57,527 bases of DNA from Cryomorphaceae bacterium. GTDB taxonomy: Bacteria; Bacteroidota; Bacteroidia; Flavobacteriales_D; Cryomorphaceae. Below are positions 39,172 to 42,037 of the stretch, piece after piece (within the stretch, counting starts at the first letter, position 1; the number at the start of each line of letters is the position of its first letter). Position numbers and translations under genes: made by a program. Below the pieces are notes generated by a model. That model was not told where the DNA came from. It worked only from the letters and a program-made list of their open reading frames with translations, and searched no databases. Where the stretch lies: assembly GCA_003565555.1 (NCBI GenBank), contig PXBH01000079.1, positions 1 through 57,527 on the forward strand, in the 5' to 3' direction.

Positions 39172-39579
39172 GTGATCAAAGACATCGAACGCCCGAAGGT
39201 AGAAGACATTGCCATAGCTGCCGTTCCCGAAAAGAATGAGGAATCCGGCGCCGATGAGTGGTACATTTACCTGATGAACAAAAAAGCTGTGGCCATCAAC
39301 AATGTCTTGATTTCCTCCCGCGGCTACGGCAAGTCCGACGAAAGAGAGGTGAAAACTTCCGAACTGCGTCACTATGTGGAAGAACTGCCCGCCCACAGCT
39401 ATGTAAAAGTTGAGCCCATTATGGAGGAACTTTTTGCGCTGAATAATCAATACTGGGTGAGCTTCTACATCGACGGGAAAATATTCGACAAGAAGTACAT
39501 CTTTCTTCCCGAGACCATCCGTGAGGCCAACCTTACCGAGATCGCCATGATGGGCAAAAAAGGCGTGATGCTGAGCTGA
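39172..39579 (+). CDS. Conserved Bacteroidota protein of unknown function
   Basis: The 135-aa protein has no signal or membrane helix. It resembles a widespread phylum-specific family that is sometimes mislabelled phenylalanyl-tRNA synthetase alpha subunit, with features such as IAIAAVPEKNE, EWYIYLMNKK, PAHSYVKVEPI, LFALNNQYWVSFYIDGKIFDKKYIF and KKGVML. No catalytic motif is recognised. The GTG start is supported by the promoter position. Its stop shares one base with the cvpA ATG, so the two are co-transcribed. Confidence 0.75.
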   Translation: MIKDIERPKVEDIAIAAVPEKNEESGADEWYIYLMNKKAVAINNVLISSRGYGKSDEREVKTSELRHYVEELPAHSYVKVEPIMEELFALNNQYWVSFYIDGKIFDKKYIFLPETIREANLTEIAMMGKKGVMLS

Positions 39580-40118
39580 TGCCCTACCTAGACCTCATCA
39601 TCGCTTTGCCGCTGGCTTGGGGCATGTTTCGCGGATTCAGGCGCGGACTCATCATCGAGATTTGCACCCTGATGGCTTTGGTATTGGGGGTTTACGGCGC
39701 CGCGGTATTCGGCGATATGGGTGCCGACTTTCTCATCCGTGAGTTCAATACTGATCCGCAGCTCAGCCTTGTACTGGGTTTTGCGCTGCTCTTTTTCCTC
39801 ATCGTAGCCGGTGTATTCCTTTTCGGGAAAATGCTCGAAGGCGTGGTCAAAATGGTCGCACTTGGCTTGGTCAATAAGATTTTCGGCTTGCTTTTCGGTC
39901 TGGCCAAATTTCTCCTCATCCTCAGCGCCCTGTTTTTCATCTGGAACGGGTTTCCTCCCACCTCCGGTCTCATCCCCGACGACTGGAAAAGAAGTTCATA
40001 CCTCTACGGGCCCGTTTCCGACCTCGCTCCCGCGGTATATCCCGCCCTGAAAGACCCCACCTGGACCGAAGTCCTCGAGCAGACCCTCGAAGAGCTTCGC
40101 GACAAAGCGGATTTCTGA
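39579..40118 (+). CDS. CvpA family membrane protein
   Basis: The 179-aa protein has four predicted membrane helices (about residues 3-20, 26-45, 64-88 and 102-124) and the CvpA-type opening DLIIALPLAWGMFRGFRRGLI. CvpA is needed for colicin V production and envelope homeostasis in E. coli; its mechanism is unclear. The C-terminal ~50 residues are soluble. It ends at the start of the repeat-containing intergenic region and converges with pgk. Confidence 0.88.
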   Translation: MPYLDLIIALPLAWGMFRGFRRGLIIEICTLMALVLGVYGAAVFGDMGADFLIREFNTDPQLSLVLGFALLFFLIVAGVFLFGKMLEGVVKMVALGLVNKIFGLLFGLAKFLLILSALFFIWNGFPPTSGLIPDDWKRSSYLYGPVSDLAPAVYPALKDPTWTEVLEQTLEELRDKADF

Positions 40119-40717
40119 ACCCTCCTTTTTTCCCGCATTCAGGAAGCCTCCGGATCGCCGCGAGGCCCGAAAGCGCGTTTGAAACTTGATGGCAAACAGA
40201 ACCGGCAAGAAGCACACCTCAAACCCCGCGCCCTGTCCTTAGTGTTAGAAAAAGGAAAGCGCCGAAGGCGCCTCTCGTAGAGGGCATGGAAAAAAGAAAA
40301 CATTAAGGCATTAAGGGTCATTAAGATCCGTGACTTACCCCATGCGTCCTGTCACGCCCTATGCTTAATCTCCTTAATGCCTTAATGTTAGGAAAAAGAA
40401 AGCGCCGAAGGCGCCTCTCGTAGAGGGCGTGGAAAAAAGTAGAAACATTAAGAAACATTAAGCGCGTGACTTACCCGATGCGTCCTGTCACGCCCTTCGC
40501 TTAATCTCCATAATGCCTTAATGTTAGGAAAAAGAAAGCGCCGAAGACCCCTCTCATCCGGCGCGTGGAAAAAAGAAAACATTAAGACATTAAGGAACAT
40601 TAAGATCCGTGATTCACCCAATGCGTCCTTTCACGCCCTACGTTTAATATCTTAATGCCTTAATGTTAAAGGGAGAAAGCGCCGAAGGTGCGGAATTTTG
40701 AACGCCCCCCTGATAAT
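40119..40717. other. Convergent intergenic region with repeat array
   Basis: These 599 bases between cvpA and pgk carry no gene. The first ~125 bases are unassigned and contain CCCGCATTCAG, also found at two other intergenic sites. The remainder is the tandem repeat described separately. Confidence 0.85.
40244..40694. repeat. Tandem array of ~140-bp structured repeats (three full copies and a partial fourth)
   Basis: Units start at GTTAG near 40244, 40387 and 40523, giving periods of 143, 136 and 142 bp, with a partial copy from 40665. Each has GCGCCGAAGGCGC or a relative, GTGA...TCAC arms and CATTAAG/CTTAATG tracts. In copy 1, CATTAAGGCATTAAGG (40301-40316) is the exact reverse complement of 40372-40387, so each unit can fold into a long hairpin. 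No coding potential. Copy 3 is the most diverged. Confidence 0.9.
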
Positions 40718-41917
40718 TCAGGAATCCTCGCGTATCGCGGCGATCCCCGGCAGCACCTTACCTTCGAGGTATTCCAGCATGGCTCCGCCCCCCGTGCTCA
40801 CGTAGCTCACCTTTTCGGCAAGGCCGTACTTATTGACCGCCGCCACAGAATCACCTCCGCCCACCAGGGTGAAGGCGCCTCTGTCCGTGGCTTTGACCAG
40901 GGACTCCGCTACGGCCACTGTTCCCTTTGCAAAATTCTCCATCTCAAACACGCCCATCGGACCGTTCCACAGAATGATCTTGCAATCTTTGATCAGTGCC
41001 TCGAAGGCCTCAACAGTCTCCGGACCTATGTCGAGCCCCATCCACCCGTCCGGGATGGCGTCGGTCGCGCAGACGTCTGAACTGGCGTCGTTTCGGAAAT
41101 CATCCGCTATCCGCGTATCTTTCGGCAGGTGGATTTTTACCCCTTTTTCCTCCGCTTTTTTCAGGAGGCTGAGGGCCGTTTCGATATAGTCGTCTTCCAC
41201 CAGCGAATTGCCGATGCTCCCGCCTTTGGCTTTCACGAAAGTGTAGGCCATGCCGCCGCCTATGATGAGGTGGTCCGTTTTCGGGAGCAAGCTCTCTAAG
41301 ATGGTGATTTTGCTGCTCACCTTTGCCCCGCCTATGATGGCCAGAACGGGCTTTTCCTTGCTGTGCAGTACTTTATCTATGCTCTCGATCTCCCCTTCGA
41401 TGAGGTAGCCGAACATTTTATCTTTCGGAAAGAAGCGCGCAATCACCGTAGTAGAGGCGTGGGCGCGGTGGGCGGTGCCGAATGCGTCATTCACATAGCA
41501 GTCGCCGTGCTCCGCCAGCCTTCCGGCAAAAAACTCATCCCCGGCCGTTTCCTCTTTGTAGAAGCGGAGGTTTTCCAGCAGGAGTACTTCTCCGGGCTTC
41601 AGGTCGGCCGAAAGCTTTCGGGCTTCCTCACCGATGCAGTCTCCGCCGAATTTTACGGAAGTGCCGCCGAGGTGCTTTTCCAAAACAGGGATCACCGCCT
41701 TCAGAGAATATTTCTCTTCCGGTCCGTCTTTGGGCCGCCCGAGGTGCGACATCAGTACCACACTTCCTCCGCTTTCCAAGATTTTTTTCACCGTGGGTGC
41801 CGCCGAACGGATGCGCGTATCGTCTGTTACCTCGCGGTTTTCATCGAGCGGCACGTTAAAATCCACGCGGATCAGCGCGCGTTTTCCCTTGAAGTCGTAA
41901 TCTGCAAATCGTATCAT
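40718..41917 (-). CDS. pgk: Phosphoglycerate kinase
   Basis: Pgk transfers phosphate from 1,3-bisphosphoglycerate to ADP in glycolysis. The 399-aa protein has the substrate signature [35 protein letters not shown], the hinge [19 protein letters not shown] and the nucleotide loop [15 protein letters not shown]. Length is normal. The ATG at 41917 gives [15 protein letters not shown], a typical start; an in-frame upstream ATG is unlikely. A one-mismatch -7 (TAATTTCG) lies at 41939-41946. It diverges from holB. Confidence 0.97.
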
Positions 41918-42037
41918 GATGTCCTGTTTTTCAGTTGCCGAAATTAAGCATATCATACGAATCGCCGAACGTCGATCCGCAGTTTCGGGCCTTCCCGCGC
42001 TACGTGTGGCGGCCGCTCGGTGTCGGGCCTTTTTTCG

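Follow-up and report, generated by a model that had tools for sequence, protein, structure and literature searches.

In the genome of a Cryomorphaceae bacterium, the convergent genes cvpA and pgk are separated by a tandem array of palindromic repeats. The stretch analysed, here called the window, is 57,527 nucleotides long. Tandem Repeats Finder (TRF), run on the window, places the array at 40237-40688, with a period of 136, 3.2 copies and a score of 532, far above every other tandem array present. Three units of ∼140 bp each are palindromic and the array edges are decayed. The best ungapped self-identity, at a lag of 143, is 0.51, and none of 200 dinucleotide shuffles exceeds 0.36. The features are as follows.

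39579-40118, + strand: cvpA (Colicin_V, PF02674), converging on the array
40226-40257, + strand: decayed right half-unit at the left array edge (cccgcgccctgtccttagtgttagaaaaaggaaa), by direct reading of the sequence; edge units of other arrays are likewise decayed
40237-40691, no strand: tandem array of three palindromic units (∼143, 136 and 141 bp), followed by a terminal GC stem, from TRF, arm and self-identity analyses
40246-40274, pgk strand: second intrinsic-terminator-like site, weak
40259-40271, no strand: GC stem of unit 1, GCGCC-GAA-GGCGC
40299-40325, + strand: left arm of unit 1, AACATTAAGGCATTAAGGGTCATTAAG, with three ATTAAG hexamers
40326-40363, + strand: core of unit 1, conserved GTGACTTACCC...TCCTGTCACGCCC, from a 20-unit alignment
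40364-40389, + strand: right arm of unit 1, CTTAATCTCCTTAATGCCTTAATGTT, with its outer 18 bp fully complementary to 40299-40316
40389-40417, - strand (pgk strand): intrinsic-terminator-like site, GAGGCGCCTTCGGCGCTTT then CTTTTTCCTA, weak
40402-40414, no strand: GC stem of unit 2
40444-40462, + strand: left arm of unit 2, truncated (AACATTAAGAAACATTAAG), from TRF and the unit alignment
40500-40525, + strand: right arm of unit 2, from the unit alignment
40538-40550, no strand: GC stem of unit 3, degenerate (GCGCCGAAGACCC)
40578-40604, + strand: left arm of unit 3
40643-40667, + strand: right arm of unit 3
40679-40691, no strand: terminal GC stem (GCGCCGAAGGTGC), the right array edge
40718-41956, - strand: pgk (PF00162), converging on the array

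Each unit opens with a GC stem (at 40259, 40402 and 40538; the last stem is at 40679). On the + strand the stem GCGCC-GAA-GGCGC is followed by a linker, an A tract, the left arm AACATTAAGGCATTAAGGNNCATTAAG, a core that reads GTGACTCACCC...CCTGTCACGCCC, the right arm CTTAATNNNCTTAATGCCTTAATGTT, an A-rich tract and the next GC stem. ATTAAG hexamers recur at 8-10-bp steps and are inverted about a core of 20-55 nt. The array contains GC stems GCGCCGAAGGCGC together with GTGAC/GTCAC arms, and in this the sequence-only reading, which had described stems of the GCGCC-GAA-GGCGC type with GTGA/TCAC arms, was accurate. The same reading counted three full copies and a partial fourth. TRF agrees as to the array, but the left arm of unit 2 is truncated and the GC stem of unit 3 is broken. 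Inverted tracts able to fold the whole unit had also been proposed. In unit 1 the 18-bp arms AACATTAAGGCATTAAGG (40299-40316) and CCTTAATGCCTTAATGTT (40372-40389) are indeed 100% complementary, but unit 2 folds no better than shuffled sequence.

Further copies, which the earlier reading had suggested looking for elsewhere in the genome, do exist. In the source genome (G000; 3.72 Mb in 237 contigs, 96.7% complete) a BLAST search with the repeat gives 13 matches, which represent ∼8 distinguishable arrays: that of the window (contig C144), two on C48 (at 54k and 37.9k), those on C121 and C204, and three that span contig ends and were joined via shared units (C187/C62, the start of C48/C232, and C82/C139). 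The genome has 24 ATTAAGNNATTAAG sites, every one of them within an array; the reversed control gives two. Contigs C62, C82, C139, C187, C204, C232 and C48 end within arrays, so that the assembly probably understates how many units there are. The GC stem GGCGCCGNAGGCGC has two copies outside the arrays, at C60:71044 and C129:45819.

Every array has its own unit variant. Units have a mean identity of 0.81 to others of their own array and of 0.76 to those of other arrays; adjacent middle units reach identities of 0.95-1.0, and edge units are decayed. This is the pattern of local homogenisation, via unequal exchange or gene conversion. Both flanks could be placed for seven arrays; six of these are situated between convergent genes, the exception being C48:54k, which is between co-directional genes.

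Among 60 related genomes, BLAST matches were obtained in two others, MAG29 of the same genus (G001) and MAG28 of the same family (G004). Their elements have the ATTAAG arms in common with the window, and the cores are different. G004 has single, half and tandem copies. The half-elements (L117 and L120-L123) consist of one ATTAAG arm and a partial core and end abruptly; such ends may reflect processing or recombination at a point inside the core. The arm motif alone (inverted runs of ATTAAG at a spacing of 8-10 bp) matched 42 stretches in a search of 85,000 species genomes. Their record titles place all 42 in Bacteroidota, namely in Flavobacterium, Pedobacter, Daejeonella, Frigoriflavimonas and several MAGs. 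A search of viral contigs with the arm pattern gave none.

Of the stretches matched by the arm motif, six Flavobacterium loci and an array of genome G006 have a GxxExxY gene located between ATTAAG palindromes. GxxExxY proteins (PF13366) belong to the PD-(D/E)XK superfamily (Pfam), and their genes are present in 181 of 395 sampled Bacteroidota genomes. A check against TIGR04256 confirmed the membership of the G006 protein, of one from Flavobacterium and of two from the window's genome. Across the 63 aligned GxxExxY proteins, residues D71, E81 and K83 do not vary, and E31 is present in 98%. The unit plan of the window, in which a GC stem with a 3-base loop has an A/T tract and then an arm on either side, is shared on direct reading with GxxExxY arrays of another motif, CACGAA, both in this genome (L161, contig C213) and in G006 (L169). 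One CACGAA-type GxxExxY array of G006 has the stem GCGCCGAAGGCGC, as in the window. The window unit has a core sequence different from those of G006 and Flavobacterium.

The repeat motif follows the phylogeny of the protein. The first tree, built from 34 proteins, places the seven ATTAAG-flanked GxxExxY proteins in a single clade (support 100/98); other G006 copies, which fall outside this clade, have different repeats or none. In a tree of 63 proteins the ATTAAG-flanked members again form one clade (100/97), CACTAA is found within its sister clade, and CACGAA marks another clade. The five motif groups require five changes on the tree, where the minimum is four and shuffles average 13.1, and none of 200 shuffles was as low. 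For a forward test, the G006 protein served as query against 395 Bacteroidota genomes, and the flanks of the best 30 loci were inspected. ATTAAG doublets were present in four of the five best-scoring loci and in none of the other 25 (Fisher p = 2e-4). The fifth best-scoring locus, in G388, has degenerate ATTAAG doublets by eye, and the next match after these five, in G090, has CACTAAG repeats, different by one base, on both sides of the gene.

The window's genome has three GxxExxY genes (L148 on C221, L155 on C121 and L161 on C213), and their repeats are of the ACAAAG, ACAGAT and CACGAAT octamer types, one each. The motif is therefore not a property of the host, since one genome carries GxxExxY genes with differing motifs. 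None of the three genes belongs to the ATTAAG clade, and no gene of that clade is found beside the window array. Because the genome lacks an ATTAAG-clade gene, the window array is termed an orphan. A PF13366 search gave no match in G001 and only fragments or divergent copies in G004, and none of the tree-placed copies from two Flavobacterium genomes with ∼40-45 ATTAAG doublets (G259 and G275) is a cognate gene. The repeats therefore persist gene-less, and GxxExxY could be a passenger. A broader claim, that every GxxExxY gene has such repeats, was dropped: a general repeat detector was positive near GxxExxY genes in 9 of 60 cases and in 8 of 81 background pieces (p = 0.25). As the general detector shows no enrichment, coupling is claimed only where motif and clade agree.

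The ATTAAG-clade gene and its palindromes occupy different sites in different genomes. They are found between hemA and hemC in Flavobacterium, at sufB-sufC in G071 and G388 (site assigned from neighbouring protein sequences), and at three more unrelated sites in G006, G199 and G251. Seven of the 12 clade members are at one common site, which leaves about five independent sites. In Flavobacterium hercynium, hemA and hemC are separated by one solo palindrome and the GxxExxY gene is absent there; on comparison of the loci, the site resembles one where the gene was lost and the repeat remained. Presence of one motif on the flanks of one GxxExxY clade suggests an undescribed protein-repeat partnership.

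Several other identities of the array have to be weighed. As the source of a structured RNA, which the sequence-only reading had considered, the array is an unlikely candidate and indeed a scarcely credible one. Some units do have strong predicted hairpins, with a folding z below -4 in three of nine units folded. In the window, unit 1 (z = -4.5) folds better than shuffles, unit 3 (-2.9) does so partly and unit 2 (-1.1) does not, and the preferred fold differs from unit to unit. Rfam gave no match, and RNAalifold found no consensus structure in the unit alignment. The changes between copies that had looked compensatory do not hold up in 20 aligned units: there is one double change in the named structure compared with 2.5 in shuffles, the covariation score is 0.036 vs 0.043, and paired cells amount to 87.0% vs 87.4%. 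At one arm position C is replaced by A in several arrays, and the pairing partner remains G. A second suggestion was a terminator array. That the array is retained as a terminator for the convergent cvpA and pgk genes is improbable, though termination may be a side property. Most arrays are between convergent genes, T-rich tracts come after the GC stems on the pgk strand, and in the sole co-directional array, C48:54k, the T-tract strand is that of the upstream gene. However, the intrinsic-terminator-like hairpins in the window array, both on the pgk strand, are hardly above the shuffle level (two vs 1.5 expected), the cvpA strand has no T tract after the stems, and the G001 array is positioned upstream of gene starts. 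Moreover, termination requires no 140-bp palindromes in three copies. Mobilisation as a REP, BIME or REPIN by a RAYT (TnpA-REP) transposase is very improbable, although the repeat is palindromic, extragenic and clustered, and the genome holds one RAYT. That single gene (L019, C101:354-698) has its own GCTCC-GTA-GGAGC repeats on the upstream side, however, and the RAYT loci located in G001, G002, G004 and G006 have no ATTAAG doublet; the flanks inspected in all five genomes have repeats of other kinds. A REP is a hairpin of 20-40 bp with a GTAG or CGTC tag at its base, whereas the 20-unit alignment has no conserved tag of either kind and the arms are much longer. A RAYT-associated REP was accordingly rejected. 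The earlier suggestion of a non-autonomous mobile or REP-like element was roughly right as to kind, as the dispersed copies indicate, but not as to a REP tag or an adjacent RAYT. In G006 a very long RAYT-type array (GTGCTGTAGGCACG, CCCGTGG) surrounds a RAYT gene (L124, contig C11).

An alternative in which a plain chromosomal satellite or a MITE-like repeat was dispersed through replication slippage and host recombination, with GxxExxY as a passenger, is unlikely but by no means far-fetched. The likeness of the arms to the GxxExxY-flanking palindromes would then be shared ancestry without function, or convergence. This genome has no cognate gene, solo palindromes greatly exceed gene-bearing ones in number, and unequal exchange alone fits the array-specific variants and decayed edges. 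On the other hand, the motif tracks the protein clade down to a sister clade that is one base away, the forward test came out as predicted, and a passive passenger is not expected to retain clade-specific repeats at unrelated sites.

Other candidates were rejected. With 23S-IVS/four-helix-bundle genes (PF05635), a further small family in these genomes, as the partner, ATTAAG doublets or repeats by the strict detector were present at 0 of 30 loci. A phage or plasmid origin was dismissed, as the arm pattern is not in viral contigs and the unit is not in plasmids; GxxExxY protein was not found in phages or viral contigs, and plasmids gave five matches of <60% identity. Integron attC core sites are RYYYAAC/GTTRRRY. 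By comparison of end sequences, the arm ends AAGAAAC and GTTAGAA are not such sites, and an attC array was discounted.

The reading preferred here, with a probability of roughly 60%, is that the window array is one of ∼8 gene-less arrays of a GxxExxY-linked, ATTAAG-type repeat that was putatively spread by the nuclease. Arrays are dispersed in the genome and homogenised within themselves, and the flanking motif follows GxxExxY phylogeny. That the GxxExxY nuclease mobilises or homogenises the palindromes is what we infer from this. The protein would recognise its own octamer palindromes as DNA and cut or nick them, and recombination repair would carry copies of the palindromes, alone or together with the gene, to other intergenic locations and amplify them in tandem. 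Recombination between repeats could then delete the gene and leave solo palindromes and orphan arrays such as that of the window. Orphan arrays would evolve further via unequal exchange, with middle units kept uniform and edges decaying. Perhaps they survive chiefly between convergent genes, where they would do least harm and where a weak terminator action is possible.

Known repeat systems are similar in part. Like REP/BIME/REPIN sequences with their RAYTs, the repeats are palindromic, extragenic and clustered, and each protein lineage has its own repeat. They differ in that the candidate partner is a PD-(D/E)XK-type GxxExxY protein and not an HuH/Y1 transposase, and the ATTAAG-type arms are 25-45 bp of repeated octamers with no GTAG/CGTC tag. 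MITEs are also short, non-coding and multicopy with inverted repeats, and a solo palindrome is found where relatives have a gene. However, a transposase is absent from the flanks inspected, no cognate transposase or target duplication was found, the units are in tandem, and the sole associated gene is GxxExxY. A survey of prokaryotic satellites regards dispersed non-coding families as rare and describes ones in Leptospira interrogans and Methanocella conradii with repeats of 37-69 bp (PMC6749651). The window repeat likewise forms several dispersed non-coding tandem arrays, all of one family within one genome, and in this sense is a prokaryotic satellite, although most arrays here have ∼2-4 units where the published survey demanded four (PMC6749651). 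It differs from those satellites in its ∼136-bp palindromic unit and its kinship to GxxExxY-flanking repeats. With respect to the GxxExxY family itself (TIGR04256, PF13366), the ATTAAG arm motif flanks one clade, and the window's genome is without that clade. Neither the repeat strings nor a GxxExxY-repeat link was found in the literature searched, outside of which some subscription journals possibly fall, and the name GxxExxY is barely mentioned in those parts of the literature that the search covered.

By itself the window array is ordinary-looking, and its significance is in the GxxExxY link. A tentative proposal, held at somewhat less than even odds, is that GxxExxY genes and their clade-specific octamer palindromes are widespread selfish (or domesticated) elements in Bacteroidota and perhaps beyond, in which a small PD-(D/E)XK nuclease would drive copying and amplification of its own palindromes and leave solo or orphan arrays behind. 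GxxExxY is a very common uncharacterised family, and it would gain a function if this proposal is true. Should every clade have its own cognate DNA palindrome, the proteins would gain a testable target. A large class of unexplained intergenic repeats would also gain an origin, and a second repeat-partner system, with an unrelated enzyme fold, would stand beside RAYT/REP.
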